Assembly (NCBI GenBank): GCA_028277665.1
Contig: JANQFU010000112.1
Location: forward strand, 1 to 35,481
From: Alphaproteobacteria bacterium
Lineage (GTDB): Bacteria > Pseudomonadota > Alphaproteobacteria > Micavibrionales > Micavibrionaceae
Direction of reading: 5' to 3'
Length of the DNA stretch: 35,481 nt
Shown here: positions 4,333 through 29,056 of the stretch, one piece after another
Layout of the letters: each line of letters opens with the position of its first letter
How positions within the stretch are numbered: position 1 is the first letter of the stretch
Position numbers and translations under genes: made by a program
Notes under the pieces: model-generated
The model's input: only the letters and a program-made list of their open reading frames with translations
Database searches by the model: none
What the model was told of the DNA's origin: nothing

Positions 4333-6405
4333 ATGGCCATATTCGCGCAAAATTCCGCCGGAACGGCAAGACAGCCGGTCTGCAAGAGACCGGTAGTGTA
4401 TGTATGTCTGTTCGCTTTGCTTCTTTCCATTGTCCCGGCACGTGATTCCGATGCTGATGATGATTCATGGGTCACGATCGATACATCCGGTTTTCAGTCC
4501 GGGATTGATGACTTCAAAACTGAATATGAAGGGGTTTTAGATAATATAGGAACGGAAGTCCAAGGATTTACGGACGGCGCTGCGGATTTTACGAACGACC
4601 TTATATCAAATATTCCCGATCCCGATACGATGATAAGCGGATTTGAAGATATCACCGGAGATCTTCCCGACATGACAGGGATTGCCAATGACATACAAGG
4701 AATTACAGAGGGTTTTGACGACACGATATCGGGGATCACGGACTCTCTTCCCGATGCCGCGGATTTCGAAGAGTTTGCAGACACGTACAACAATCTGGCC
4801 GGAGACCTGCAGGAGACGATCGATTGGGGGAAAGAGGGCGTTCAGGATGTCATGGATTATATTTCCGACAATCCGATCTCTGACGAGCTTGTTGAGCAGT
4901 ACGGAGAGTTAAAATCCCTTCTGGACGAAGGCACGACGGAAGCTCTTGCAGAAGCAAAAGAGCTTTTGGGTTCGGACACGTTCGAACAGCTCAGCGAGAT
5001 TACGGATTACCTTTCGGAACTTGACAATATTACGGCGGCACTGGGTGTGATCGGAAATCTTCCGGCGGCGCTGGAGGGCGATATTATCGCTATGTTCAGC
5101 ATGTTGCAGGATCTTGCCCAGCTTGCGGGTATGGCCGACATTCTGGATGCGTATACGGACCAGCTTCTGGAAGCCCTCGGTATCGATTTCGGAACGGGCT
5201 CTCTTTGTCCGTCCTGTCCGGCAGGCGGATGCATCGTTGATGCTCATCTTGGCGTTATTTTGAAATCCTATACCGAGCACAGCAGTACACAACGTAAATT
5301 CTCGGCGGAAGAACAAGCGTTCAAAGCATACGTGCTGACGAGCTTGTGGGCCGGAGAAGTCCTGCCCTCTTTGATGAAAATGACAATGCAGGCTGTTGTT
5401 GATGTCACATTGCAGACTTTCATGATCGGAAGCCAGATTGATGCCCGCATTCAAATCGGCCATCAGAGAAAGGTATTCAGTCATACCGCGCAGAGCAGTC
5501 TTGACTATACGCCGGACGAAGACGTCTGCACGATTGCAACATCCGTCCGGTCTCTCGCTGCGTCGGAAGACAAGGCTGAATTCGCCGTTATTCCTCTTGT
5601 GCAGGCAACCCTCTCCCGGCTCTTGATGCTGGGAGACGATCCGGCTGCGCCCGGTCCCGCGGCGGACAGAGAAAACCGTCATGCGACCTATACCGAGAAA
5701 TTTTGCAGTCCTTATGAAAATAATTCCCAGATGCGCTCCGTCTGTCCGGAAGGCGCCGGCGCCGATTCCAAATGGGATGCCGATTATGCGCGCTGGGGAA
5801 CGGCAGGAACCGTTCCCGTCGATTTCTCCGGAGAAGATGAGGAAGGAGAAGACGGAGAGGCGGTCCCGACGGCGGAAACGGCCGCCTTTGAATTTATGAA
5901 GAACATGTTCGGAGACGATCTTCCGGCACGTTTGAGCGCTGAAGATTTAAAGGATGAAACAAATCAGATTCGCTTGATCGAGGAGCGTTCCCTGATCGCG
6001 AAAAGGATGGTAGCCGCCACAAGCGGCGCGCATTATCTCGCAATGAGGAGTGCGGGTACGGAGAAATCAGCAGAATATCTTGAGCCGATATATACGGCTC
6101 TCGGCGTGTCGGAAGAGGACGCCGAAATGCGGCTCCATGGAGAAGAAGGGGATACGCCGCCGAGTTATTTTGCGCAAATGGAAACATTGACCAGAACTGT
6201 CTATCAAAACCCCGATTTTTTTACAGGTCTGACAACGTTAAGGCCGAGACTGCTGCAAAAAGAAGTGGCGATGAAAGCCATAGGCGTGATGCAGGAAATG
6301 GATCATTTCGATTGTGAGCTTCGCTCGGAAATGCTGTTTGCGCTTTTGCTGGAGATGGCGCTGATTGAGGCACAGGAAAGAATCGAAAGCGAAGAGGACG
6401 CATAG
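4333..6405 (+). CDS. Secreted Cys-motif paralogue 1, long acidic N-terminus
   Basis: I do not recognise a named family. The 690-aa protein has a signal sequence (hydrophobic core about residues 20-36). Residues about 45-285 form an acidic, mostly helical extension with short Asp/Gly/Ile-rich periods such as GFEDITGD and GFDDTISGITD. A cysteine cluster CPSCPAGGC follows at 292-300. The part shared with the next three genes starts around 335: a helix with LPSLMKMTMQ, DEDVCTIAT (C399), EKFCSPYENN (C458), a third Cys at 471, an acidic linker, and a C-terminal helical domain (551-684) with PPSYFAQMETLTR, VYQNPDFF and ELRSEMLFALLLE. C661 aligns with a Cys in paralogue 4 only. TGAGGGG lies before the ATG. 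It is the first gene of a tight four-gene operon and is probably periplasmic or surface-exposed. Confidence 0.88.
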   Translation: MAIFAQNSAGTARQPVCKRPVVYVCLFALLLSIVPARDSDADDDSWVTIDTSGFQSGIDDFKTEYEGVLDNIGTEVQGFTDGAADFTNDLISNIPDPDTMISGFEDITGDLPDMTGIANDIQGITEGFDDTISGITDSLPDAADFEEFADTYNNLAGDLQETIDWGKEGVQDVMDYISDNPISDELVEQYGELKSLLDEGTTEALAEAKELLGSDTFEQLSEITDYLSELDNITAALGVIGNLPAALEGDIIAMFSMLQDLAQLAGMADILDAYTDQLLEALGIDFGTGSLCPSCPAGGCIVDAHLGVILKSYTEHSSTQRKFSAEEQAFKAYVLTSLWAGEVLPSLMKMTMQAVVDVTLQTFMIGSQIDARIQIGHQRKVFSHTAQSSLDYTPDEDVCTIATSVRSLAASEDKAEFAVIPLVQATLSRLLMLGDDPAAPGPAADRENRHATYTEKFCSPYENNSQMRSVCPEGAGADSKWDADYARWGTAGTVPVDFSGEDEEGEDGEAVPTAETAAFEFMKNMFGDDLPARLSAEDLKDETNQIRLIEERSLIAKRMVAATSGAHYLAMRSAGTEKSAEYLEPIYTALGVSEEDAEMRLHGEEGDTPPSYFAQMETLTRTVYQNPDFFTGLTTLRPRLLQKEVAMKAIGVMQEMDHFDCELRSEMLFALLLEMALIEAQERIESEEDA

Positions 6406-6413
6406 AGAACGTC

Positions 6414-7715
6414 ATGTCGATTATTAATAGAATGCGAACAAGAAGAACAAACGGGCCTGTCCTTTCAAGACGCCGTCCGGCAAAGAAAAAATGGGGACGG
6501 CTCGCCGGTTTGACGTGTCTGGGCATTCTGGCCGGCGGGGTTCTTTTTGTCCAGTCAGCCGCTGCTTCGCCCTGCTGTACGTGTATTGCTCTTGCCGCTC
6601 TTGCAACGCGTGCCGCAATCGTGGCTTTCCATGCCGATACCCGTTCCTACGTGTCTGATGAAATGAAAAAAGAGCAGGAATGGTGGATCGATGAGGTCAT
6701 GGAAGGGCATGTCAGGCCCGCGCTTCAGAGAATGACCCGTACATTTGTAACGCTGCAAAAGCTTGTTACGGTTGATTACTACAAAATGACCGATGTTGAG
6801 AATCTGTTGGAAACGTCTCAAACATACGGATTGAAACAGGCCGAAATTCATAAAAAATTTCAGTCCTCCCAGGAGCTGTGTGAGATCGGAACGTTGGTTG
6901 GCGGGCTTGCCGCAGCCCGGGAAATTTCGCGCGGGACGACACTGTCCATGAGCGAATACGGAATCAAACGCGACTTGTTCGACGCCGGCGCGGTGTCGGC
7001 CGAAGGCCGGGATGAAGATATGGCCGCACGTCTGGAGCAGTTCAAGACAACATATTGCGATCCCCGCGCCCAGAATTTCGCTTTGGAACAGGTCTGCGGC
7101 GAGGGCGGCCCCCCCGCCCGGCGGAACCGGGACATCCATTACGCCATGATGGCCGACATTCCAAAAACGCTGGATGTTTCAGCGGTCGGGGCTGCCGATC
7201 CGGAAGGAGGGGAGGAATACCTTGAGGATCTTCAGGCGCTTGAGGTTAATCTTTTCGGAAGCGAGGTCCTTTGGCCGATTGAAGATCTGGAAGGGAATGA
7301 AAAGAAACACGAAAAACTTCTCAGCATTGCCGCCGCGCGCAGCGTGGCGCGAAACAGTTACTGGCGGCAGGTTGGTTTGAAGGCCGCCGGTCCTCCCAAC
7401 CGACGGGAATTTATGGCTGCCGTTCTCAAGGAGCTTGGCGCTGAAGACGATGCCATTAATGCCTATATGAGCAAAAATCCGAGTTTTTACGAACGTCTGG
7501 ACGTATTGGCGAAAAAATATCTTCAAAAACCTGGTTTTTATATCGGCCTGAATGACAAGCCCGGCAATCTGGTCCGTAAAAGCGCCGCTCTCGACATGAT
7601 TAAACTGATGATTCGGGGGGAACGCAAAAAGACCCGGGAAGCGTCTTCCGCCACCGCGGCAGTCTGGTTAATGACGGAACTGAATGCTGCGCAGGACCGG
7701 GTTGAAAACAAGTAA
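6414..7715 (+). CDS. Secreted Cys-motif paralogue 2, compact
   Basis: This 433-aa protein is of the same unnamed family as its neighbours and begins 8 nt after paralogue 1. An unusually long, Arg/Lys-rich leader (residues 1-27) precedes a hydrophobic segment (about 30-50) ending in SAAAS, a likely signal-peptidase site. The mature protein would start with a cysteine cluster PCCTC (54, 55, 57). Then come a helix with EVMEGHVRPALQRMTRT, the family motif HKKFQSSQELCEIGT (C156), TYCDPRAQN (C215) and a third Cys at 228. The C-terminal domain shows ARSVARNSYW, EFMAAVLKELG, NPSFYERLDVL and KPGFYIGL. It lacks the long acidic extension of paralogues 1 and 4 and the C-terminal Cys. No membrane helix is visible besides the signal. 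The function is unknown. Confidence 0.87.
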   Translation: MSIINRMRTRRTNGPVLSRRRPAKKKWGRLAGLTCLGILAGGVLFVQSAAASPCCTCIALAALATRAAIVAFHADTRSYVSDEMKKEQEWWIDEVMEGHVRPALQRMTRTFVTLQKLVTVDYYKMTDVENLLETSQTYGLKQAEIHKKFQSSQELCEIGTLVGGLAAAREISRGTTLSMSEYGIKRDLFDAGAVSAEGRDEDMAARLEQFKTTYCDPRAQNFALEQVCGEGGPPARRNRDIHYAMMADIPKTLDVSAVGAADPEGGEEYLEDLQALEVNLFGSEVLWPIEDLEGNEKKHEKLLSIAAARSVARNSYWRQVGLKAAGPPNRREFMAAVLKELGAEDDAINAYMSKNPSFYERLDVLAKKYLQKPGFYIGLNDKPGNLVRKSAALDMIKLMIRGERKKTREASSATAAVWLMTELNAAQDRVENK

Positions 7716-7753
7716 GGGCGAATTGCCCGAAGAACCGGAAGAGAGGACATATC

Positions 7754-9079
7754 ATGATAACGGCAAAAACAAGACATGAAAAAGTAAGGATCCGGGGACA
7801 CATCCGGCGTAGCGTTTTTTCCGCGACCCTTTCCGCCGTTTTGTTTGTCTCTGCATTCTTTTCCGTTCCTTCGAATTTTTCCGCACCCGGCGGCATTCGT
7901 CCTGCGTACGCGCAACTCTGCGCGGAATGTTGTGCCTGCGTGGAAGCAAGCTCATGGAATACAAGATGGCTCGTGATTTTTCCCTTGCACATCATGCTTC
8001 GTAACCATATTTCCGGCCTGTTTGAGGAACAGAAAAAATTCGTTGTCGATGAATTTTATATGGGCCATGTCGTTCCGGCCATGCAGGATATGACGCGGGA
8101 ACTTGAATCGAACGGACAAATGTTTACGGTCGATCTTGCGAAGATGATGGACGCGGACAATTTCGTGGAGGCAACCCAGGCAAAAGCGGAAATGAGAGCG
8201 GACATCCATATGGAGTTTCAGCCCTCTGACGAGCTTTGCAAAATCGGAACGCTGACCCGGGATCTTGCCGCAGCGGAAAGTAAAGCGCGTTACGCAACCT
8301 TGATGCTGGCTGAATCGTTTACCAAGCGTCAGGGCTACGAGGCCGGGAGTGTCTCGGCGGACGGGCCGGATGCGGATGTGAAAGCCAGACATCAGCAGAG
8401 GCAGACTACGTTCTGTAACCCGCATTTCAATAACGGGAGAAATCAGGACGTAGAAGGCTGTACGGAAACGGATCCGAAATACCGGGGCGCTGATGTCAAT
8501 TTTACCCAGACAATCTGGTCGCCTCTGACCATTCCGATTGAAACCCTGACATCCGGAGAGACAACCATCGAGCAAGAAGCGGTTGAAGCTTTTATCAATC
8601 ATCTGGTTCCCGTGTTGCCCGGGCAAGTCCCGGACGGAGACAGTACGGCAGGCAAAGAACGTGAAATGGACCAGCAATCCCTGTCTGCCAAATTCAGTGT
8701 TGCGACCTCTGTTCTGGCTCACCTGGCCGGGATGAAAGCATCCGGCACCGGGAACGGAGCGGAATTTCTGAGAGCCGTCTACGCCGCTATGGGTATTCCG
8801 GACGGGAATACGGAACAGCTCGGTGAAAACCCAAGCTATTATGCGATTATGGAAGTTTTGACGAGCGCTCTGCCCAAAGATCCCTCTCTTTACTTAAATC
8901 TTGGAGGATCTCCGGAGAACGCGACCCGGATGATGGTTGCCATGCAGGCGATCATGCTCATGCTCTCCCGCGACATGTATAAAACCGATTTGCAGATTTC
9001 TGCGGTTCTCGCTGTGTTGCTTGCTACTGAGCTGGATTCTCTGCAGCGCCGCTTCGTCGAAAACACTTCGGGGGCCTGA
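7754..9079 (+). CDS. Secreted Cys-motif paralogue 3, compact
   Basis: This 441-aa protein is of the same unnamed family. A basic leader and hydrophobic core (about residues 18-45) end in PAYA-Q at 53, a convincing signal-peptidase I site. The mature N-terminus carries the cysteine cluster LCAECCAC (56, 59, 60, 62). The shared elements follow in order: FYMGHVVPAMQDMTRE, IHMEFQPSDELCKIGT (C162), TFCNPHFNNG (C221), C236, DVNFTQTIWSPLTI, and the C-terminal domain with SVATSVLAHLAGM, EFLRAVYAAMGI, NPSYYAIMEVLT and LAVLLATELDSLQ. It may be the least diverged copy, since it matches the others best across each motif. It lies 38 nt after paralogue 2 and 5 nt before paralogue 4. ATTGCCCGAAGAACCGGAAG precedes the start, with GGAAGAGAGG as the likely ribosome binding site. 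Confidence 0.88.
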   Translation: MITAKTRHEKVRIRGHIRRSVFSATLSAVLFVSAFFSVPSNFSAPGGIRPAYAQLCAECCACVEASSWNTRWLVIFPLHIMLRNHISGLFEEQKKFVVDEFYMGHVVPAMQDMTRELESNGQMFTVDLAKMMDADNFVEATQAKAEMRADIHMEFQPSDELCKIGTLTRDLAAAESKARYATLMLAESFTKRQGYEAGSVSADGPDADVKARHQQRQTTFCNPHFNNGRNQDVEGCTETDPKYRGADVNFTQTIWSPLTIPIETLTSGETTIEQEAVEAFINHLVPVLPGQVPDGDSTAGKEREMDQQSLSAKFSVATSVLAHLAGMKASGTGNGAEFLRAVYAAMGIPDGNTEQLGENPSYYAIMEVLTSALPKDPSLYLNLGGSPENATRMMVAMQAIMLMLSRDMYKTDLQISAVLAVLLATELDSLQRRFVENTSGA

Positions 9080-9084
9080 TTGCA

Positions 9085-11076
9085 ATGCCGGATCGTCAAA
9101 CTACATATTGTCAGAAGATTTTGCCGGTTGCCGCGGTTGCTCTGGTTTTCGTATTTTCCGGAACAACAACGGCTCTCGCCGATGAGGATACGGGCTCGTC
9201 GCATGTCTGGGGAGAAAGTTTTGGCGCGGATATTGATGCAGCCGGAAGCGCCGTTGGCGACGCGGCGGGAGACGCCTACGATTATGTTTTCGGAAGCGAT
9301 ACATATGACGATGTGGAAGAGCTTGGGAGCGATGCCATTGGCTACACAGGAGACGTCCTCGACGGCGCGGGCGATCTGAAGGGAGAGCTTGAAGGGACAA
9401 TCAAAGACGCAAATGAGGCAATCAGTGAGACTGTTGGAGAGTTCAATGAATTATCAAACAAGACGCTGGGCGAAATTCAGGAACTGCGTGATCAGACGGT
9501 CGGTAAAATCAATGAAACATATGACAGGGTGTATGACGAAACGATCGGTGAATATGTAGATCTCTATGATTTGACAATCCGGGAATTTGAAGAGCTCTAT
9601 GACGTAACAATCGAGAGTGCCGAAGGCCTTTATGACATGACGATCGGTCAGCTTGAAATTTTCTATGATTTGACGATCGGTGCGCTGATCGACATAACGG
9701 AAGGGCTGTACGACATGACGATCGGCTCGGTTGTCGAGCTGGTCGAAGACCTGTCCGATAAAACAATCGAGACGATCGAAGATTTATTTGATGCGTTGTA
9801 TGACGGGACGATCGGGGCGGCAACTGATGCCATCGAAGATTTTTTCGAAGGGATTTATGACGAGACGATTGGAACGATCGCCGATCTTTTCGGCTTTGAT
9901 GATGATGAAGAGCTTGAGGAACTGGCGCATAAATTATGGACCGGCTCTATGAGCGACATGTCCCGGGAAGTGGCGACAAACCGCTTTATGACGGCGGCCG
10001 ATACCGCAAAGATAATCGATGCATCGGAAATGCAACGTTCCATGCTCGAAAAAAACCGTTTGCGGGCGAAATATCACCATGAGCTTCAACCCAGTGAACT
10101 GGTTTGCAGTATTGGAACGGTTATCCGGCCTGTGTCGGCAACACGGGATGGGGCGCGCGCAGCGTCAAACTCAATTCAGTCGACGGGCCTGAACCGGGAT
10201 CTCGGCTCGGTAAGCGTTTCGGAGACGGGCGAGGAAGCGATTACCGAGTCCAAAGAAATGAGAGCCCGGAGAACTCAGTATGACGAAAGATATTGCTCTC
10301 CTCATGAAGGCGGGATTAACGCAATGGAAGAACGTTGCCAGGCTGAACCGGGATCGCGGCGGAAAAATATGGACTTTTCCGCCACGATCGACGTTCCGAT
10401 GACGATTGCCGAGTCCGGTTATCTGGAATCAGAATCTTCCGATGATGTTGGATCCGGAAAAACCGATACGGATGCGCTCTTAACGAATCTTGTCGGATAT
10501 GACCTGTCCCGGCGGGCAAGCTCGACCGGCGTTAGCGAAGAAGCCGAGGCCGGAGATCCAAAGACGGAGAGCCGGACCTGGCAGCAAACACGGTCCATGA
10601 GTCTTTTGCGCGGACCTGCCCGTGACGCAATTGCGGCAATCATCGCGGAAAAAAGCGAAGGAGTTGAACAGAACGGAGAATTCATTCGTTCTGCGTTTGC
10701 GTCAATAGGAATGGGGGAAGAGGAAATCAGGGACCTCGTCGGGGAAAAACCGAGTGCTTACGCGGTCGGTGAGGTGATTTCAAAAATACTGTATCAAAAT
10801 CCGGACTTCTATGTGGCATTGGGAGAGGGCATTAACGGAGCGACGGCTGCGGGCGTTGCGATGCTCGCGGCTCAGTTGATGGAAGACCGCAACAGATACG
10901 AAGCCTGTTTGAGGACGGAAATGGTCCTTGCGGCTCTCCTTGAAGCGAAACTCCGGGGATGGCAGGAAAAACTCGATGCACGGCGCCAGACGACACAAAG
11001 AGGAACCGGCTCCGGGAACAGCCCCGACACTGACGCAGATTCCGGCTCCGGGTCTGAAGAAGAAACAGACACATAA
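9085..11076 (+). CDS. Secreted Cys-motif paralogue 4 with hendecad stalk
   Basis: This 663-aa protein is of the same unnamed family. A signal peptide ends at TTTALA-D (about residue 32). A Gly/Ala/Asp-rich stretch follows, then residues 124-271 hold eleven repeats of the type YD-x-TIG spaced by 11, 15 or 19 residues. The family core begins near 310: HHELQPSELVCSIGT (C341), RYCSPHEGG (C404), C418, MDFSATIDVPMTI, then the C-terminal domain with EFIRSAFASIGM, KPSAYAVGEVI, LYQNPDFYVALG and CLRTEMVLAALLEAKL (C608, matching C661 of paralogue 1). It lacks the N-terminal Cys cluster found in the other three. The tail (about 636-663) is Ser/Gly/Asp/Glu-rich and disordered. It is the last gene of the operon and may be a fibre or stalk subunit; that role is inference. 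Confidence 0.88.
   Translation: MPDRQTTYCQKILPVAAVALVFVFSGTTTALADEDTGSSHVWGESFGADIDAAGSAVGDAAGDAYDYVFGSDTYDDVEELGSDAIGYTGDVLDGAGDLKGELEGTIKDANEAISETVGEFNELSNKTLGEIQELRDQTVGKINETYDRVYDETIGEYVDLYDLTIREFEELYDVTIESAEGLYDMTIGQLEIFYDLTIGALIDITEGLYDMTIGSVVELVEDLSDKTIETIEDLFDALYDGTIGAATDAIEDFFEGIYDETIGTIADLFGFDDDEELEELAHKLWTGSMSDMSREVATNRFMTAADTAKIIDASEMQRSMLEKNRLRAKYHHELQPSELVCSIGTVIRPVSATRDGARAASNSIQSTGLNRDLGSVSVSETGEEAITESKEMRARRTQYDERYCSPHEGGINAMEERCQAEPGSRRKNMDFSATIDVPMTIAESGYLESESSDDVGSGKTDTDALLTNLVGYDLSRRASSTGVSEEAEAGDPKTESRTWQQTRSMSLLRGPARDAIAAIIAEKSEGVEQNGEFIRSAFASIGMGEEEIRDLVGEKPSAYAVGEVISKILYQNPDFYVALGEGINGATAAGVAMLAAQLMEDRNRYEACLRTEMVLAALLEAKLRGWQEKLDARRQTTQRGTGSGNSPDTDADSGSGSEEETDT
9454..9897 (+). 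repeat. Eleven YDxTIG hendecad/pentadecad repeats within paralogue 4
   Basis: This is a coding repeat for residues 124-271. Repeat starts fall at about residues 124, 135, 150, 161, 172, 183, 194, 209, 224, 239 and 258, giving periods of 11, 15 and 19. Typical units are YDLTIREFEEL, YDMTIGQLEIF and YDETIGEYVDL. Periods of 11 and 15 correspond to 3 and 4 helical turns, which is typical of straight or right-handed coiled coils. At DNA level the units are only partly conserved, so the array is not recent. Confidence 0.85.
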
Positions 11077-11160: not shown

Positions 11161-13584
11161 ATGTCTTTGGGTGCTATGGATTCGGCGCTGTCCGGTCTGC
11201 GGATCGCGCAGCAACAGTTAAATATCGTTTCGACGAATATCGCCAATGTCGGTACGGACGGCTACACGCGCAAGATCCTGCCTCAGTCGACCGTTGCGAT
11301 TAACGGCGAAGCCGTTGGCGTCACATCGGAAATCGTGACACGCTATGTCCGTGCCACACTTGCGCGCGAGGTCTGGACGCAGGTCAGCGTTACTTCGGGG
11401 CTTGAAGTTACGCAAAGCTACCTCGACAACATCCAGAATTTTCACGGACCGTCCGATGCCGAGGTCTCTCTATCGGCAATTATTTCCGGCCTCCGGGATT
11501 CTTTTTCCCAATTGTCGGATCTGCCGGAGGATGATTTCCTTTTGCGCGAAACGCTCAATCAGGCGCAAAGCACAGTCTCCAAGATCAACGATTTTGCCGA
11601 TCTTCTGATCGATCAGCGCAACGACACCCAGACGGATATTCAGGTCGCGGTGAACCGGGTGAATGATTTGCTCGAACAAATCGAAACCCTGAACGACGAT
11701 ATCAAGGGGAATACGGCTCTGAACAAGACGACGGCCCAGCTTGAAGACCAGAGGGATATTGCCGTCAAAAAACTCTCGGAACTGATGGAAATTACATTCT
11801 TCACGCGCGGCGACGGCCTGATGGTCATCCAGACCGCGCGGGGAGAACAACTCGTCGATGACGATGTGACGCCGCTTTATTTCAGCCCGAGCCCGATCGG
11901 GACACAATCTTCCTATCCGGAAAATGTTGCGGGAATCTGGCTTGGCGGCAATCCGGCTGAAACGGCGAATGCGTCGGATATCACGGAAACCGGCCTCGGC
12001 GGAAAAATCGGTGCGCTTCTGGATTTACGGGACGAAGTTCTGCCGCGCTATCTCGCACAGCTTGACGAATTTTCGCATAAACTCGCCACTCGTTTCGCCT
12101 CGCAAGGCCTTGAGCTGTTCACGGATCCAAGCGGAACGGTCCCGCCCGATACGGAGCCGACGCCGGATCCGCCCGGTCCGGCAACGGCCGTATCCTATGT
12201 CGGGTTTTCTACGAGCATTCAGGTCAACGACGCCGTTGTCGCCGATCCGTCCCTGATCCGGTCGGGGACGGTGACAAGCGACCGCCCGGTCCAGACCGGA
12301 TCGAACGAGGTAATTCGCCGGATCGTCGAGTTTGCCTTCGGTGATGTCGCTTATCAGGAGGCGGTTGGAACGAACGATATCCGCGCGCAGGCGACCGGTG
12401 GTGTGACATTGCAGGAATGGCTCGGGATTTACTCTACCAATCAGGTGACAGGGACGACCAGCGTCGAGCAGTACAGCGATATCGCCACGCTGTTCGCATC
12501 CGGCGGGGATATTTTTATTCCGGCCGCTCCGCCTCCGGCCGAGACGGATCAGTTCCAGTTGACGTTCGATAACTATAACGCCGCAGGATCGACGACGATC
12601 ACAATCGACCTCAGCGATGCGGCCGCCAATTATCCGATCGGAGTCGGGATTAATGACGCGCTGGACCAGATTATCAGCGAAATCAACAACCAGATTGCGC
12701 TGGCGGGGATTCCGGCGGATGTTGCGGCAAGCGCCTCCCGGAACGCTTACGGCCAGCTTGTTCTAAACAGCCGCGCCGATATCACTGTGACCGGCTCCGG
12801 GTTTGCAGCCGAGGCGATGGGAGATGACGGCCTTGAATATCTGGGTTTGAGCGAAGGGACCTATCAGGCCGAAGATCCCTATTTCGAGATCCAGATTGGA
12901 AACAAGGACCGCGTGAAAATCACAATCGAGCCCGGCGATACGGAAACGGATCTTGAGAACAAGCTGACGTGGGACACGGCGAGCGGGACCGGCGTTCCGG
13001 GATTGTATGTTGATATCGATGCGTCCGGGAACCTGACATTAAGGCCCGGAAACGACGACAGCAACGGCGGGCCGGTTTTCGGGGGCGATATGAAACTCTT
13101 TGCCGGAACGATCGATGCCGACGGGACGGGCGGAATCGGCGTCCCGGCCGGTGTGAATATCATCTCGACCCTGTTCGGCAGTTATACGGCCGGTCCGCCG
13201 CTTCAGGAGTCTTCTCCGGTAAACGATGTGACCTACGGGTCTCTGGAAAGCTCGGTTGCCGGAGCAGGAACGGTCCAGTTCCGCAGTGAATATCTCGGGC
13301 CGAATGCAACGGTCAGTACGCAAATTACGGGTGCAACAAATTTGATCGATTACGCTCAGCGGATTATCGCCCAGCATGCCGAGGAAGCAACCCAGAGGAC
13401 CGAGCAATACAAGGACGAACAGACCTATCTCGAACTGGTCGAGCGTCAGCTTGCCGATGAGTCAGGAGTCAATATTGATGAAGAGCTTTCGCACATGATC
13501 GTGATTCAGACGGCCTATAGCGCCGCCGCACGGGTTCTGACCGTTGTTGATGAAATGTTCGCACAATTGATTGAAGCTGTATAA
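11161..13584 (+). CDS. flgK: Flagellar hook-associated protein 1, FlgK
   Basis: This is the hook-filament junction protein, secreted through the flagellar type III system without a signal peptide. The N-terminus has the flagellar rod/hook motif LRIAQQQLNIVSTNIANVGT around residues 13-32, followed by DGYTRK. The C-terminus has SGVNIDEELSHMIVIQTAYS and ARVLTVVDEMFAQLIEAV, the matching amphipathic helix of FlgK. At 807 aa it is much longer than E. coli FlgK (about 547 aa). The extra length sits in the surface-exposed middle, including a Pro/Thr linker (VPPDTEPTPDPPGP, about residues 327-340) and an Asp/Thr/Gly-rich beta-type region around 440-700. ACAAGGTAAGAG precedes the ATG. It has its own sigma-54 promoter and is followed by flgL. 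Confidence 0.93.
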   Translation: MSLGAMDSALSGLRIAQQQLNIVSTNIANVGTDGYTRKILPQSTVAINGEAVGVTSEIVTRYVRATLAREVWTQVSVTSGLEVTQSYLDNIQNFHGPSDAEVSLSAIISGLRDSFSQLSDLPEDDFLLRETLNQAQSTVSKINDFADLLIDQRNDTQTDIQVAVNRVNDLLEQIETLNDDIKGNTALNKTTAQLEDQRDIAVKKLSELMEITFFTRGDGLMVIQTARGEQLVDDDVTPLYFSPSPIGTQSSYPENVAGIWLGGNPAETANASDITETGLGGKIGALLDLRDEVLPRYLAQLDEFSHKLATRFASQGLELFTDPSGTVPPDTEPTPDPPGPATAVSYVGFSTSIQVNDAVVADPSLIRSGTVTSDRPVQTGSNEVIRRIVEFAFGDVAYQEAVGTNDIRAQATGGVTLQEWLGIYSTNQVTGTTSVEQYSDIATLFASGGDIFIPAAPPPAETDQFQLTFDNYNAAGSTTITIDLSDAAANYPIGVGINDALDQIISEINNQIALAGIPADVAASASRNAYGQLVLNSRADITVTGSGFAAEAMGDDGLEYLGLSEGTYQAEDPYFEIQIGNKDRVKITIEPGDTETDLENKLTWDTASGTGVPGLYVDIDASGNLTLRPGNDDSNGGPVFGGDMKLFAGTIDADGTGGIGVPAGVNIISTLFGSYTAGPPLQESSPVNDVTYGSLESSVAGAGTVQFRSEYLGPNATVSTQITGATNLIDYAQRIIAQHAEEATQRTEQYKDEQTYLELVERQLADESGVNIDEELSHMIVIQTAYSAAARVLTVVDEMFAQLIEAV

Positions 13585-13606
13585 GGAGAAAGAAGAGGAA
13601 ATCGAC

Positions 13607-14680
13607 ATGACATATATTTCAACGATGGGCCAGGCGCTGGATCAGATCGAACGTCTGAAAAACATGCAAAGCCAGCTTTCCACTCTGCAATATCAATTGT
13701 CTTCCGGAAAGAAGGCGGACTCGTTCAGCGGTCTGGAAACGGATACCCTGCCGCTTCTGCGGGCCCGCACAAAGCTTCAGGCTTTCGAGACATATGAGAT
13801 AAACATTACACAGGCCGACCGGCGGATCGGTCTGATGGTTACGGCCATTAAGGAGTTTAAAACGCAGGCGCAGAACGTTGAAGAAGCCGTGATCGGTCAG
13901 ATTCAGCAAGGAGAGGTCGATATGGGAGTGGTCACGGACCTGTCCAACAATATCGACGATTTTTTGATCGATCTTGTGAACACAAAAGATGGAGAACGCT
14001 ACCTCTTCGGCGGCGCAGACGGCGGCAACAAGCCGCTTGAGAACACAGGCTTGCTTGACACGTTCACGCAAAGTCAGGTTGACGACTGGATCAACGGCGT
14101 GATCGATACGGATACGCTGATTGCCAATATCAAGGACCGGACGGTTCTGAACGATACGACAGCTGGCTACAATGCGGCGCTGGCCAGCAGCGAGGCCGGA
14201 AACGTTTTTGTCCGGGTCGATGAAACGACGGAGCTCGATTATACGGTCAAAGCCAATAACGATGGATTCCGCGATATTGTCGTTGCCGTGTCCATGCTGC
14301 GCTCCATCGGCGCACAGATCGATCAGGTCAAGCTCGGCGACAGCGATCCGGCAACGACGGTCATTCCGCCCGGAACCGACGATCAGGACCGGACCGATAA
14401 TTTTTTCGAGCTTTACAACGAACTCGCCCGGATGATCAATCAGGGCGTGACCGATCTCGAGGGGGAGAGCGAGCAAATTCAACAGGTGCAGGCCCAGGTT
14501 CAGGCACTGGAAGAGGACTATCTGGTTGCCAAGGATAATTACCAGACAATCGTCTCAAACATTGAAGACGCGGACATGACCGAGGTTGCGCTGAAGATAA
14601 ATACGTTCATGATTCAGCTCAACGCCTCTTTCCAGACGACGGCATCCTTGCGCGACCTGACGCTCGTGAATTTTATTTAG
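13607..14680 (+). CDS. flgL: Flagellar hook-associated protein 3, FlgL
   Basis: This is the second hook-filament junction protein and a relative of flagellin. The N-terminal helix MTYISTMGQALDQIERLKNM, followed by QLSTLQYQLSSGKKA, is typical of FlgL/flagellin. The segment FLIDLVNTKDGERYLFGG (about residues 121-138) is a hallmark of the family. The C-terminal helix ALKINTFMIQLNASFQTT closes the D0 domain. The open frame extends to 13571, overlapping flgK, but GAGGAAATCGAC directly before the ATG at 13607 and homology at MTYIS favour that start (357 aa). It lies 22 nt after flgK and is surely co-transcribed from the sigma-54 promoter. Confidence 0.92.
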   Translation: MTYISTMGQALDQIERLKNMQSQLSTLQYQLSSGKKADSFSGLETDTLPLLRARTKLQAFETYEINITQADRRIGLMVTAIKEFKTQAQNVEEAVIGQIQQGEVDMGVVTDLSNNIDDFLIDLVNTKDGERYLFGGADGGNKPLENTGLLDTFTQSQVDDWINGVIDTDTLIANIKDRTVLNDTTAGYNAALASSEAGNVFVRVDETTELDYTVKANNDGFRDIVVAVSMLRSIGAQIDQVKLGDSDPATTVIPPGTDDQDRTDNFFELYNELARMINQGVTDLEGESEQIQQVQAQVQALEEDYLVAKDNYQTIVSNIEDADMTEVALKINTFMIQLNASFQTTASLRDLTLVNFI

Positions 14681-17647: not shown

Positions 17648-18556
17648 TTAAAACTGGGTAAAAACGACCAGAGCGGCAACACTGGCGACAATCCCGAACC
17701 CGGAGAGCAAATCGGCCTCTTCCCGCTTTCCCTTCAGGCGGTCGTAAAGCAGGATCCAGACCGGAACGCTGAGGTAAAACATCGTCACATAAGCGGGATT
17801 CTCAACCATCGGAATCGCGTACCATTTCGGGATAACGCCGCCGATCCAGAGGAGGGCCATCACGATCCCGAAAAAAATTGTCCGTTTTGAGAAAAATCCG
17901 GATGTGATGCGTGTATCGCAAGGCAGGCGCCGGGTAAAGGCCGGAAAGAGCCGAATCGCAATATAGCAGCAAAAAACGATGGAGCATTGTGCCGTGACAT
18001 AAACATATGCCGCGTATTCATGCGAGCCTTTGGCGTAGTCGATCGCATAGCGTCCGCAAAAAAAAGCGATGATGTGTATAAGCAGAACCGGCAGCACGGT
18101 TTTGAAGACCGGGAAGCTGATCGGACATTTGCGCAAGCGAATGGCGAAATATACCGCGGCCAGAAGAGATAGCGTAATTCCGGCCGTCCGGCCGGGGGTC
18201 TCCAGATAATCGAAAAACAAAAGCGGGTTGAGCGCGATCCAGACGACAAACACCATGATTTCGTTAAAAGGGAGGAAGCGACTGACGAGTCCGGCTCCGC
18301 TCTTTGAAATCAGTCCGATAAACACCAGATCCGCATAAGAGACGAGAAGAGCGTTTCCGGCCATCAGGGCATAAAATTGCCAGGCCTGCGGCCAAGCGAC
18401 AAACGGTGCGAACGGCAAAAGCATCAACACACAGAAAAGCCGCATCCAGAACGCGAGATCTTCCGCCCGGACGTGCGAGACTTCGTTCACAATCCTGTAG
18501 ATGACGGTGGCAAGGACACAGATTGAGGCCGCAAAGATCCAGATGGCATCAGACAT
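17648..18556 (-). CDS. DMT/EamA-like integral membrane protein
   Basis: This 302-aa, very hydrophobic protein has about ten transmembrane helices, the layout of drug/metabolite transporter superfamily members. The N-terminus MSDAIWIFAASICVLATVIY is the first helix. The last segment is YVTMFYLSVPVWILLYDRL, a cytosolic KGKREEAD, then a final helix GFGIVASVAALVVFTQF. Two-fold internal similarity is suggested, with re-entry around residue 150, but the substrate cannot be read from sequence. No partner genes point to a function. The start has a second copy of its locus directly upstream (18572-18716), so the two were once a tandem pair. Confidence 0.75.
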   Translation of the reverse strand: MSDAIWIFAASICVLATVIYRIVNEVSHVRAEDLAFWMRLFCVLMLLPFAPFVAWPQAWQFYALMAGNALLVSYADLVFIGLISKSGAGLVSRFLPFNEIMVFVVWIALNPLLFFDYLETPGRTAGITLSLLAAVYFAIRLRKCPISFPVFKTVLPVLLIHIIAFFCGRYAIDYAKGSHEYAAYVYVTAQCSIVFCCYIAIRLFPAFTRRLPCDTRITSGFFSKRTIFFGIVMALLWIGGVIPKWYAIPMVENPAYVTMFYLSVPVWILLYDRLKGKREEADLLSGFGIVASVAALVVFTQF

Positions 18557-18868: not shown

Positions 18869-20176
18869 CCACGGCTCGGAATCCATGGTTAACGCGGTTT
18901 AATTTTCAGGATGCTCAAGAGGATAGAAACATCCCAGCCTGCTGATTTTCTTCGTGTTTTTACGCTTCCCTTCCCCTGATCCCGGCGGACAAGGTCCAGT
19001 GCAAACCGCCTGACGACAGCCATATTTTTGGCTCCGCTCCCGCTCCGGTAGCGCGAATAATCGTCTTTGAACGCGACATCCAGAAGCCAGTGCATGCTTT
19101 CCACGCCCCAATGTCCTCGGCTGCCCGCCGCAATCCTCTCAATATCAGGAGCCAATGAGCAAATATAATATCGTGTATCTATAGTACACTTGTTTTTATA
19201 TTCTGTCCTATTCACAACTTTCACTATGGACTTTATGTGCGAGAAGCGCATTGCGCCCGGATAAGACTTTGAGCCGCATAGCCATTCCACCTCTCCGGAG
19301 ACAATGTATTCCCGGCCTTCAATTCGTCCATGCCCCTTCTCAAGGGTCGTTTTCCGGATCAGTCGCTCTTCCGGTGCCGTCCTGAAATAATCGGCAATTT
19401 CCTTTTCCAGATTCCTTTGGTTGCCTTTGACCATAAGGAGAAAATCGGCTCCGTGAGAGACAATCCGCTCGGCGATTTCAACCTGACAACCCATGGCGTC
19501 GATGGTCACCAGAGAGCCCTTTAATTGCTTCTTTTCCGCCAGCTCATCGAGGAGTTCCGGTATGGCTGTAATCTCGTTCGTTTTCTCTGGAACGCCAATC
19601 TGAGCAAGGACCAGACGTGCATTTGTTGCATACGCACTGAGCGTGTGAAGGGGCTTGATGCCCTTCGCCTTGTCGTGTGTCCGTCGGGATGTTTTTCCAT
19701 CTATGGCGATATGATCATGTGCGTCCGGCCACAGGTCTGCGGTCCAGTCATCAAAGCACCGGGCAAACAGGGCGGGAGGAACACGGTTTACCAGAGCGCG
19801 TATCCATCTGGCGCAAGGAATGCCATTTTCATATGCAGAAAATTGACGCAGAAAAGGAAGATTATGCTCTCCCCATGCGACAATATCGTCGAAGTCATCA
19901 CAAGAAGAAATCGTTGCGCATGTAAGTAAAAACAATATTTCGTTAAGTGGAAACATGACCCGGTACGGATCGCGCTGATCGTCAATCTCTGAAAAATGGC
20001 GTAAAAGAAGGGCTACGCGATCTTTGACTAACTCCTCATCGCTGGGCTCCGGGAAAAGTAATTCTATGTTGGATGTCATGGGGGCTCTCTGTTGGGGATG
20101 GCGAATCACCCTCAAAGAGAATCACATCTCAAATAGCAAGGCAAAAGTTTCGTTAACCATGACTTCCGAGCCGTGG
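18869..20176. mobile_element. ISAs1-family insertion sequence, about 1308 bp
   Basis: The ends at 18869-18894 and 20151-20176 are inverted repeats of 26 nt with two mismatches, beginning CCACGGCTCGGAA. They enclose one transposase gene. The transposase stop codon (18889-18891) lies inside the left repeat. The flanks (TGATTCGC on the left, AACAAATA on the right) show no 8-10 bp target duplication. This suggests either a deletion or recombination next to one end, or ends placed slightly wrongly. Confidence 0.88.
18889..20079 (-). CDS. ISAs1-family transposase (DDE)
   Basis: This is an intact transposase of 396 aa from the ATG at 20079. A TTG-started extension to 20115 is possible but has no support. 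The N-terminal DDE_Tnp_1-associated domain contains FSEIDDQRDP and LLTCATISSCDDFDDIVAWG. The catalytic RNase H-like domain has HIAIDGKTSRRT (first Asp about 127), LVTIDAMGCQ (second Asp about 194) and RGHWGVESMHWLLDVAF (Glu about 327), the order and spacing of ISAs1/H-repeat transposases. No frameshift or stop is seen, so the element may still move. Confidence 0.93.
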   Translation of the reverse strand: MTSNIELLFPEPSDEELVKDRVALLLRHFSEIDDQRDPYRVMFPLNEILFLLTCATISSCDDFDDIVAWGEHNLPFLRQFSAYENGIPCARWIRALVNRVPPALFARCFDDWTADLWPDAHDHIAIDGKTSRRTHDKAKGIKPLHTLSAYATNARLVLAQIGVPEKTNEITAIPELLDELAEKKQLKGSLVTIDAMGCQVEIAERIVSHGADFLLMVKGNQRNLEKEIADYFRTAPEERLIRKTTLEKGHGRIEGREYIVSGEVEWLCGSKSYPGAMRFSHIKSIVKVVNRTEYKNKCTIDTRYYICSLAPDIERIAAGSRGHWGVESMHWLLDVAFKDDYSRYRSGSGAKNMAVVRRFALDLVRRDQGKGSVKTRRKSAGWDVSILLSILKIKPR

Positions 20177-21111: not shown

Positions 21112-22458
21112 TTATTCTTTCTGTCCGCCCAAAGTAAACAAGCGGAAAGCCCCCTCGTCAAAACTTGCCCCTTCCGTCTGAGCCTCATCCAGAATGGTTT
21201 TCTCGAGTTTCGCCCCTCTAAAATCGGCCTCGCGGAGATCACAGCCCTGCAGATTGGCATAGGACAAATCTGCGCCAGACAGAATGGCGCTCTTGAAATT
21301 GGCGCCGGACAAATCCGCATAACGGAAATTCGCGCCCTCAAGGTTGCAGGGATTAAAACGTTTCACGCCGCTGCCGCCACCGCCGAACATCAAAGCCGAG
21401 AAATTCGTGCGCCGCAGGCGGGCATGGGCAAACATGGCCCCTTTGAAACTGGAGCCGCGCAAATCGGCCTCTTCCATATCGCAGCTCCGGAAATCCGCCT
21501 GATCCAGAAGCGCGCTTTGCAAATGAACCTGGTACAGATTCATGCCGAAGAAACGCCCGCGCACGGCCTTAATGGCTGTCAATTGCTCTTGCTTCAAAGA
21601 CTTGAGAGGACGAAGGTCAAAACCGCTCAGATCAAGTTGCCCTCCCTCTTTTCCTGCTGTCGTTACCCAGAGCCGATGCTCCTCAATCATCTGCGCCAAA
21701 GGATTTGTCAGCTCCATCACGGAGGTGCCGATATTCTCGTCCGTCACGGCGCCGGTCAGATCCGCGTCCAGTCCCCGCAATTCATTGACGTCGACATCCG
21801 TCAGAATCGCCGAGGTCAGATCCGCCCCTTTCAGTTTGCAATCCGTGATTTCTGCACCGGACAGGTCCGCTCCTTCGAGACGCGCGCCGGACAGGTCCGC
21901 CCGGCTGATATTGACGCCCGCCATAATCGCATCGGAAAAATCCGCCCGGTTTGCAAGCGAACCCGCCAGGCGTGCCCCCGACAGATTGGCTCCCCGGAAA
22001 CAGGCGCTTTGACCCGAATCATATTCTCCATCCGTAGAGAACCCGCCGACTCTCAAATCCGCCGAGTCCAGATTGGCCTCTTCAAGACTGGCGCATTCAA
22101 TACGGGCGCCTCGCATATCCGCCCGAACGAAGCTTGTCCGGTTCAGGTTCGCATTTTGTAAATTGCAAGCGTATAAAACAGATTCCTGAAAATTCGCCTC
22201 ACTCAGATCCATGCCTTCCATGTTACAACCGGTAAAATCAGCCTGACGCATATCCTGCCCGGCTAAAGACAAGCCCGACAAATCCGTTTTACGAAGCACG
22301 GCACGCCGTCCGCCAAGGCGCCCTTCCATATAACGTTCATGCAAACGAACGAGGGCATTCAACTGGTCTTGTGAAATCCGTTCAAGGCCCTCGCGTCCGT
22401 CCAGAGACGGAGACGATGAGGAAGATTGCGGAGGGAGTGTTGTTTTATCTATTGGCAT
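21112..22458 (-). CDS. Pentapeptide-repeat protein
   Basis: This 448-aa protein has two arrays of A(D/N)LXX pentapeptides, which fold as right-handed quadrilateral beta-helices. The first runs from about residue 58 to 235 (TDLSGLSLAGQDMRQADFTG, later SRADLSGARLEGADLSGAEI). A non-repeat helical insert follows at about 236-310, containing NPLAQMIEEHRLWV. The second array runs from about 315 to 435 (LQSALLDQADFRSCDMEEAD, later LEGANFRYADLSGANF). The N-terminus (1-30) is Ser/Pro-rich with no signal peptide. The biochemical role is unknown; DNA-gyrase mimicry is known for some members but nothing specific points to it here, despite gyrB being nearby. It lies 8 nt after the TlpA-like gene and is clearly in one operon with it. 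Confidence 0.9.
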   Translation of the reverse strand: MPIDKTTLPPQSSSSSPSLDGREGLERISQDQLNALVRLHERYMEGRLGGRRAVLRKTDLSGLSLAGQDMRQADFTGCNMEGMDLSEANFQESVLYACNLQNANLNRTSFVRADMRGARIECASLEEANLDSADLRVGGFSTDGEYDSGQSACFRGANLSGARLAGSLANRADFSDAIMAGVNISRADLSGARLEGADLSGAEITDCKLKGADLTSAILTDVDVNELRGLDADLTGAVTDENIGTSVMELTNPLAQMIEEHRLWVTTAGKEGGQLDLSGFDLRPLKSLKQEQLTAIKAVRGRFFGMNLYQVHLQSALLDQADFRSCDMEEADLRGSSFKGAMFAHARLRRTNFSALMFGGGGSGVKRFNPCNLEGANFRYADLSGANFKSAILSGADLSYANLQGCDLREADFRGAKLEKTILDEAQTEGASFDEGAFRLFTLGGQKE

Positions 22459-27192: not shown

Positions 27193-27994
27193 CCGCTCCC
27201 GCTTTCGTTCCCGCCTTCACTTTCCCAAGCGCGAAAGACAGGCTCGCCGTCGCGGTCTGCTCCGGCACATCCTCCAGAACCGCATGAATCTGAACGGCTC
27301 CTTCCCCCTCAAGCATCCTGACCGGGCGCGCGATGACCTGCGTCCCGACATCATGGCCGAATTCATCCAGAAACAAGACGCGAATATCGGGAACGGAAGA
27401 CGGCTCCCCGCGCAGATTGATCAGCGCGCCATCAAGAGAAATCCGGGGGTGGGCTCCCCCCTCTCCGTTAGCCATGACCCGGTCGAACACGACCCCGGAG
27501 CCGGGCACGTCAACCTCCATACCAAGGAGCATATAGAGCTGTGCCGAAGGAGGCCAGACAGAGACCATCGCATCTTTTAAAGGAATAAGCCCGGCGAACA
27601 ACAGGACACACAAAGCCCCCGCGGCGGCGTAGCCGAATATCTGCGCTTGCGGATGATCCTCCGGCTCCGGCGGCGGAGATCTCCTGCGCGCTGCGGAACG
27701 CATCATTCCGGAATCGGCTTCTCCGGACCCGGAAGCGCCGGTCTCCTCATGTTCAACAAGAGCAACCTCGATATCGGACTCTATGTGCACAGCCTCTCGC
27801 GGCGGTTCGTCGTAATCCTCGACCGGCTCGTCATCAACCGGATCATCAGTTTGAATTTCGGAAACATCTCCTTCTTCCGGCCCCTGATGCCAGACATGGC
27901 CGCAAACGCCGCATTTAACCTGACGCCCGTCCTCACCGATCAGGTGAGAGGCGATCAAAAAACGCGCAGAACATTCAGGACAGGAAAGAATCAT
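27044..27994 (-). CDS. MJ0042 zinc-ribbon/DUF3426 protein with His-rich tail
   Basis: This 316-aa protein starts at the ATG at 27994. The N-terminal MJ0042 zinc ribbon is MILSCPECSARFLI with C5, C8, C28 and C31 (CGVCGHVWHQ). An acidic linker follows (DDPVDDEPVEDYDEPP), then a transmembrane helix (FGYAAAGALCVLLFAGLIPL) and a DUF3426-type periplasmic domain with INLRGEPSSVPDIRVLFLDE. The last 50 or so residues (DAEDTHVPDQDDHAPMHGGE and on to HSGHH) are rich in His, Asp and Gly and are coded antisense to the end of the DUF4175 gene. The upstream frame to 28078 contains no better start. The function of this family is unknown; the tail might bind metal, but may simply be read-through sequence. Confidence 0.85.
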   Translation of the reverse strand: MILSCPECSARFLIASHLIGEDGRQVKCGVCGHVWHQGPEEGDVSEIQTDDPVDDEPVEDYDEPPREAVHIESDIEVALVEHEETGASGSGEADSGMMRSAARRRSPPPEPEDHPQAQIFGYAAAGALCVLLFAGLIPLKDAMVSVWPPSAQLYMLLGMEVDVPGSGVVFDRVMANGEGGAHPRISLDGALINLRGEPSSVPDIRVLFLDEFGHDVGTQVIARPVRMLEGEGAVQIHAVLEDVPEQTATASLSFALGKVKAGTKAGAAKTVPEDAEDTHVPDQDDHAPMHGGEFHPQSHQSDAHDAPAGGSHSGHH

Positions 27995-28069
27995 CGTTTC
28001 CGGCTTCAAAGTAGCAAGACAATACTTTATTCTAGGCATCCTGCCCCAGAAAACAAGAGACGAGTCTCC

Positions 28070-29056
28070 ATGCGCCATTTCCCAAGATCGAGTTTTTCAT
28101 TTTCTTTTTTCATTTCATCACTCCGGAAAGGGCGCACAGCTTTCCGGAAAAAAGTTAGTACGCAATCCCGGAACCTATATCGAGCTTTGAAAATCAAGGA
28201 TTTTCATTTGGCGAGATTTGGTATCCGGGATCTTTTCCGGAAGCCCCCGGCTCTGCGCAAAATCTCTGTTTACACAGATCTTTTGCTTGTCCGGGGTTGC
28301 GCTTTTGGAGGCTTTGACAGGAATAACGGATATACAAATTTTTTCCGAGGAAAGATCTCTATTCTTTTTATCTGTATACTCCTGACGATTGCCTCTCCGG
28401 GAAACGGCTTACATGCATCCCCTCCTTGCGCCCCGCCGGAGAACCGCGCCTGCCTCCTCGCCGAGCTTGAGACCGCCGCGAACGAGATCAATGATCCGGA
28501 CTGGCGGGACAAAGTCCTGCGGGAACTCGCCAAGACTTACGCCTCCGACGGCGCATATGAGAGAGCTATTGCCCTCCTTCCGCAAATCAGATCCCCCGAC
28601 ACGAAAGCCATGACAATCCGGGGGATTGGCATGGCTTTCGCCGAAAAAAACCCGGAGACTTTTTTCGCACGCCTGCGCGCGGAAGCGGATCGCATTGACC
28701 ATCCCCCCTCCCACGCAATTGCGCTGACATACATTTCCATGGCGCAAGCCCGCGCCGGAGACGATGCGGGCGCGGCCCAAACGGCCGCAGAGATGAACAA
28801 TCCCGCCCTGCGGAACAAGGCATATGCAGAAAACGCCGAGATACAAGCCGAACGCGAAGACCTGGTCGCCGCCTTCAAAAGTATCGAAATGATCGACGAT
28901 CCGGCCTTCCGGGACAAGGCGCTAAGGCTCGTCAGTGAGATTCTGGCAAAAGAAGGCAACGCAACGGGCGCACTGGTCGCCGCCAGAGACATCGAAGACC
29001 CGCTGCAAAGAGCGCAGGCCCTGCAGCTTTTTCTCGACGTCCAGACGGCAGAGTAA
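28070..29056 (+). CDS. Exported helical-repeat (TPR/Sel1-like) protein, start uncertain
   Basis: The C-terminal 220 codons look real. A hydrophobic signal (FRGKISILFICILLTIASPG) ends near GNGLHA, followed by helical repeats of about 30-40 residues with the theme I-D-P-x-W/F-R-D-K-L and a following A-x-x-G-x-A. Examples are INDPDWRDKVLRELAKTYAS, MNNPALRNKAYAENAEIQAE and MIDDPAFRDKALRLVSEILA. These resemble TPR-like units, with a role in protein-protein contacts. The ATG at 28070 would add about 85 odd, basic residues before the signal; the frame reads on upstream to 27647 in antisense of the zinc-ribbon gene. No ATG, GTG or TTG occurs between 28286 and the hydrophobic core. CGAGGAAAG lies just before an in-frame ATC/ATT at about 28355-28363. 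The true start is undecided. Confidence 0.62.
   Translation: MRHFPRSSFSFSFFISSLRKGRTAFRKKVSTQSRNLYRALKIKDFHLARFGIRDLFRKPPALRKISVYTDLLLVRGCAFGGFDRNNGYTNFFRGKISILFICILLTIASPGNGLHASPPCAPPENRACLLAELETAANEINDPDWRDKVLRELAKTYASDGAYERAIALLPQIRSPDTKAMTIRGIGMAFAEKNPETFFARLRAEADRIDHPPSHAIALTYISMAQARAGDDAGAAQTAAEMNNPALRNKAYAENAEIQAEREDLVAAFKSIEMIDDPAFRDKALRLVSEILAKEGNATGALVAARDIEDPLQRAQALQLFLDVQTAE

Follow-up and report, generated by a model that had tools for sequence, protein, structure and literature searches.

What are the products of four consecutive genes that resemble one another and little else? They lie in the window analyzed here, a 35,481-nucleotide stretch of contig JANQFU010000112.1 from a member of the Micavibrionaceae (assembly GCA_028277665.1). 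The genes (A to D) and the two that follow them are listed in Table 1. Elsewhere in the window are a DDE_Tnp_1-type transposase gene (18889-20115, minus strand), a gene for a 448 aa protein composed mostly of pentapeptide repeats (21112-22458, minus strand), and ORFs of 302 and 469 aa (17648-18556 and 27647-29056) with no Pfam or NCBIfam match.

Table 1. Window coordinates of the array and its downstream neighbors; 'IcmX/TraW-like' denotes the probable assignment argued in the text.
Feature	Coordinates	Strand	Description	Basis
Gene A	4333..6405	+	690 aa IcmX/TraW-like paralog, long acidic N-terminal extension	BLASTP to B, C, D; family profile
Acidic N-terminal extension of A	4453..5187	+	~residues 41-285, acidic minus basic residues = 55	Alignment of the four; charge count
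Gene B	6414..7715	+	433 aa IcmX/TraW-like paralog, core form	BLASTP E 1e-62 to C; family profile
Gene C	7754..9079	+	441 aa IcmX/TraW-like paralog, core form	AlphaFold2 model matches DotA-IcmX protochannel chain 9ngy_AP1
Gene D	9085..11076	+	663 aa IcmX/TraW-like paralog, adjoins flgK, long acidic N-terminal extension	Model core matches 9ngy_AP1
Eight YDxTI[GRE] repeats in extension of D	9532..9873	+		Pattern count in translation
flgK	11161..13584	+	Conserved downstream neighbor, outside secretion system	Pfam FlgK_D1 3.7e-36
flgL-like gene	13571..14680	+	Conserved downstream neighbor, outside secretion system	TIGR02550 flagell_flgL 1.5e-16, below its cut-off; Pfam Flagellin_N

Organization of the four-gene array

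The intergenic gaps A-B, B-C and C-D are exactly 8, 38 and 5 nt. All-against-all BLASTP comparisons relate A to D with E-values from 1.8e-17 (A-B) to 1.2e-62 (B-C) and pairwise identities of 23-33% over ~320-410 residues, and these alignments indicate that the four share a common ancestry. The common core is ~400 residues long, is alignable in its C-terminal part, and includes the PSYYA/YQNPDFY region; C162, C221, C236, P360 and S361 (numbering of protein C) are invariant among the four, with the third conserved cysteine 13-15 residues past the second. N-terminal cysteines are usual across the wider family, and each of the four proteins starts with a hydrophobic segment of the signal-peptide type, a putative export signal. 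A preliminary description of the locus had already recognized four adjacent and divergent paralogs with an alignable core, as the gaps and the BLASTP E-values (1e-17 to 1e-62) confirm. The motifs it listed are broadly as noted there, except that M(E/G)HV is confined to B and C, and NPSYYA/YQNPDFY is degenerate in B, C and D.

The acidic N-terminal extensions, ~240 residues long, are carried by A and D, missing from B and C, and absent from that description. In the extension of D the first five YDxTI repeats begin at residues 150, 161, 172, 183 and 194, giving an 11-residue period; the repeat-bearing part of the AlphaFold2 model of D is of low confidence.

Database searches and distribution

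Scans of A to D against Pfam and NCBIfam return no match at E-values up to 5, and this includes the VirB5/TrbJ sequence families, with which a distant kinship is still compatible. Scanning the four against PHROG was uninformative, 47 family members had only scattered weak matches in Pfam, and no flagellar model matches either set. Neither two family profiles nor TraW matched any PDB sequence, and tblastn searches of C against plasmid and phage collections likewise found nothing. An initial profile scan of genome contigs returned no relative and a narrower alignment recovered them; 153 family members were gathered from related genomes, so the similarity among the four genes is far beyond chance.

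The family was present in 47 of 58 relatives by the first profile and, using a better one, in 98 of the 103 Micavibrionales genomes that are at least 90% complete; among 387 sampled genomes of the class, only five holders lie outside the window's own taxonomic family. Tandem arrays in the Micavibrionales usually contain 3-5 copies, with a median internal gap of 2 nt. The near-universal occurrence of the family in this order, usually in 3-5 copies, is new here. In a tree, the flgK-adjoining copies from the genera sampled group in one deep clade, and copies at other positions are orthologous inside subclades; the duplications are thus old and the copies have been maintained separately. The window's own copies are on long branches outside this pattern of positional orthology. 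The earlier expectations of old, specialized paralogs and of a set rarely present as a single gene are borne out by the tree and by the family counts and copy numbers across loci respectively.

Similarity to IcmX and TraW

A structure search covering 350,542 PDB chains was performed with AlphaFold2 models of two of the proteins. The model of C (pLDDT 84.5, from an alignment of 96 sequences) has as its top match chain 9ngy_AP1 of the Legionella DotA-IcmX protochannel, with a Foldseek probability of 1.00 (next chain 0.18) and a VIA Z of 11.9 (next 6.6). The model of D, built from a separate alignment, finds the same top chain (Foldseek probability 0.99, next 0.08), and its core matches with a VIA Z of 14.3 and 3.7 Å over 243 residues (next Z 6.8). 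These matches have modest Foldseek E-values (5.8e-3 and 0.15), and, as the tool itself warns, Z values of 13-14 can arise between helical proteins through common arrangement. Judging from the entry title and the residue range 23-458, chain 9ngy_AP1 is likely IcmX rather than DotA, and the models predict an IcmX-type fold in the family.

Profile comparisons point to TraW. With hhalign, family profile A3 matches eight plasmid TraW proteins at 97.0% (E 1.1e-10), and two other diverse family profiles do so at 96.1 and 96.5%, the latter over 339 columns; E-values for diverse profiles range from 3e-9 to 1e-10, and all controls (reversed TraW, ten column shuffles and ten control families) are at or below 2.2%. 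The narrow profiles A4 and A5, which represent only the window's taxonomic family, score 1.8 and 2.2% with TraW and give no match. In tblastn searches limited to loci L177 and L178, R64 TraW finds the family gene with E-values of 3.6e-4 and 2.3e-4 respectively. The profile similarity to TraW holds for diverse family profiles and fails for narrow ones.

Structural scores are inflated by long helices, and the IcmX match might reflect a generic long-helix-bundle similarity in an unrelated envelope protein that merely lies near type IVB genes, a reading with which the failure of the narrow profiles to find TraW would agree. However, two models place one chain far above all others searched, this chain comes from the machine encoded next door, and diverse profiles match TraW with clean controls; we consider such a coincidence very improbable.

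Gene neighborhood

In 70 named loci, DotI is the immediate upstream neighbor of the array in 52 and FlgK the immediate downstream neighbor in 51, the latter with a median gap of 105 nt; some of the loci without one or the other are cut by contig ends. Most loci have the array divergent from dotI-dotH-dotG-traP-traQ-dotO and followed by flgK and flgL, beyond which are a TcpQ-domain gene, icmT, dotB, dotC and dotD (DotI, DotH, DotC, DotD and DotG are named from Pfam, and traP, traQ and icmT from gene order and size). DotI also adjoins the array in families f4, f6 and f7 and in an unrelated member of the order. Genomes G353 and G479, from another alphaproteobacterial family, have the gene flanked by DotO/TraU and DotA/TraY, which is the slot of traW in R64.

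Several further genes were noted in these regions. Conserved between a traR-like gene and dotO (L068:474-1160 and equivalents) is a ~230 aa gene that has CxxC pairs, looks HNH-like and matches nothing in Pfam. In several genera (L129, L135, L142, L147 and L151) the last IcmX-like gene is preceded by an inserted ~160-230 aa gene of no recognized family, and in G297 genes for two secreted-looking paralogs (180 and 201 aa, 32.5% identity) separate the IcmX-like gene from DotA (L182:11095-12371). An array of the family is also present in a MAG labelled Verrucomicrobia (L109, JADYZA010000151.1), probably on a misbinned Micavibrionales contig.

Given the predicted fold, the profile similarity to TraW, and the conserved place in or beside type IVB genes, A to D are very probably diverged and tandemly multiplied IcmX/TraW (VirB5-class) subunits of a chromosomal Dot/Icm-like (I-type, type IVB) system of the Micavibrionales. 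The preliminary description saw no recognized family, which is accurate for Pfam and NCBIfam but not for fold, profile and gene position, all of which are IcmX/TraW-like. Its proposal of an envelope assembly agrees with the adjoining dot genes, and profile searches of alphaproteobacterial genomes with the family found the set next to secretion genes and usually in at least three copies. The comparison it offered with VirB5/TrbJ proteins was apt, as IcmX and TraW represent the VirB5 class in type IVB systems (PMC12624023).

Besides the missing Pfam, NCBIfam and PDB sequence matches, the failure of the narrow profiles and the limits of the structural scores, two observations on gene position count against the IcmX/TraW assignment: flgK and flgL are neighbors as constant as dotI, and the array in the window's own genome is not adjacent to type IVB genes. 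In this genome the type IVB genes are dispersed over contigs, whereas they are contiguous in most relatives, with dotI-H-G-traP on C10 (L080), dotD-C-B-icmT on C85 (L187), three DotA genes on C78 (L203), and the IcmX-like array on C81 (the window) with only flgK-flgL; this split over four contigs is why the window itself shows no type IV genes. The position of flgK directly downstream in so many loci, together with an array adjoining fliF, fliG and fliH in family f5, raises the alternative that these are secreted proteins associated with the flagellum and co-expressed with flgK and flgL. This seems extremely unlikely, since the proteins match no flagellar family, arrays lie beside dotI without flgK in L122, L125, L132 and L084 and beside dotO and dotA in another family, the flagellar neighbor varies between families, and the fold and profile are those of IcmX/TraW.

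DotA and other type IVB components

The type IVB parts encoded across these genomes include DotA/TraY, DotB, DotC, DotD, DotG, DotH, DotI, IcmT, DotO, DotM and a TrbC/DotL-like coupling protein that is closest to R64-type TrbC; this list is pooled over genomes, with individual parts checked in subsets of them. DotA/TraY is found above the TIGR04346 cut-off in 55 of 58 genomes, that of the window included, where three tandem DotA/TraY-like genes encode proteins of 947, 922 and 920 aa (L203:3992-12431). A DotA triplet is present in every other genome of the window's taxonomic family whose DotA region was read, and DotA is single copy in other families such as f7; the tripling, too, is new here. 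A 644-aa membrane protein encoded downstream of dotO was considered as a DotA candidate and rejected, as it is YidC, and the 577-aa protein encoded next to the DotA array is an ATPase of the ABC-F type.

The family and DotH are both missing from four genomes (G028, G031, G042 and G080). This was considered as a functional link and dropped, as flgK is missing from the same four; FliF is retained in three of them and DotA in the three searched. A block that was lost together or left unassembled explains the pattern, which is therefore uninformative.

Micavibrio aeruginosavorus ARL-13

The genome that we take, from inference, to be that of M. aeruginosavorus ARL-13 contains an intact set of dotD, dotC, dotB, icmT, dotI, dotH, dotG, dotO and DotA copies, together with DotM/IcmP and a TrbC/DotL-like coupling protein. 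It has two IcmX-like genes and at least three DotA copies, so there is no one-to-one correspondence between the two. In the paper on the ARL-13 genome, no evidence for systems of type III or IV was reported (PMC3189940), and no description of a Dot/Icm system in Micavibrio was found in the open-access literature searched. If the genome's identity is as supposed, its gene content indicates, contrary to that paper, that ARL-13 has a type IVB system.

Possible roles

How epibiotic predators such as Micavibrio attack their prey is an open question, and a type IVB machine with multiplied central-channel subunits is a concrete and testable candidate for prey contact. Subunit composition and arrangement, exposure, substrates and a part in predation we infer as follows. 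The paralogs could assemble into mixed rings or act as alternative tips, the structure may be lengthened or decorated by the acidic extensions of A and D, and the likeliest use would be protein delivery into other bacteria. We suggest, tentatively, that the Micavibrionales have an overlooked contact-dependent type IVB machine, its channel composed of several DotA-like and IcmX-like subunits (as mixed rings or interchangeable tips), with which the epibiotic predators might inject or drain prey.

The same genes could instead constitute a chromosomally fixed conjugation (DNA transfer) system, in which the IcmX/TraW-like proteins are mating-channel subunits with no role in attack. The gene order does track the R64 tra region, and the kinship of the coupling protein to TrbC points the same way, but nearly every genome of the order has the system and in a stable gene order, unlike mobile elements, and C is without a match in the plasmid collection; on balance conjugation is unlikely.

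Some or all of the copies might also no longer be channel parts but surface-exposed recognition-type tips that differ according to the partner cell, a role proposed for Bartonella TrwJ1 and TrwJ2, which are exposed and bind erythrocytes (PMC3406051). By this analogy the separate retention of several old copies and the long acidic extensions on some of them would be accounted for. The core, however, is not faster evolving than DotH or DotG, with 38-44% identity as against 46% for DotH and 43% for DotG in the same genome pairs, and unusual core variability was looked for and not seen. We regard this as a possible but rather doubtful role for what are very probably IcmX/TraW-type subunits.

Comparison with known systems

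Proteins of the VirB5 class (IcmX, TraW and TrbJ) sit atop a stalk of the VirB6 class, in which the equivalents are DotA and TraY (PMC12624023), and the DotA-IcmX channel is pentameric (PMC12857230; PMC12981334). The family described here resembles Legionella IcmX in fold, in a candidate N-terminal export signal, in its dotI/dotH/dotG or dotA neighborhood, and in the presence of DotA in the same genomes. It differs in that Legionella has a single IcmX rather than usually 3-5 diverged copies, some with long acidic extensions, and the PDB search detected no pairwise sequence similarity between them; the window's taxonomic family also differs from Legionella in having three DotA copies. R64-type TraW is matched by profile at 96-97%, with the cysteines and C-terminal motifs aligned, and its slot between traU and traY is the one occupied in G353 and G479, whereas the Micavibrionales genes are chromosomal, multi-copy and moved beside dotI, with very low identity (13%).

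The type IVA proteins VirB5, TrwJ and TrbJ belong to the same functional class, but the ~400-residue core contrasts with the 26-27.5 kDa TrwJ1 and TrwJ2, lacks a Pfam match, and belongs to a type IVB machine. VirB5 homologues are likewise duplicated in Bartonella Trw (PMC12857230), which is a precedent for diversification rather than evidence for the Micavibrionales case. In the Micavibrionales, the VirB5/VirB6 stalk can apparently diversify within one lineage.
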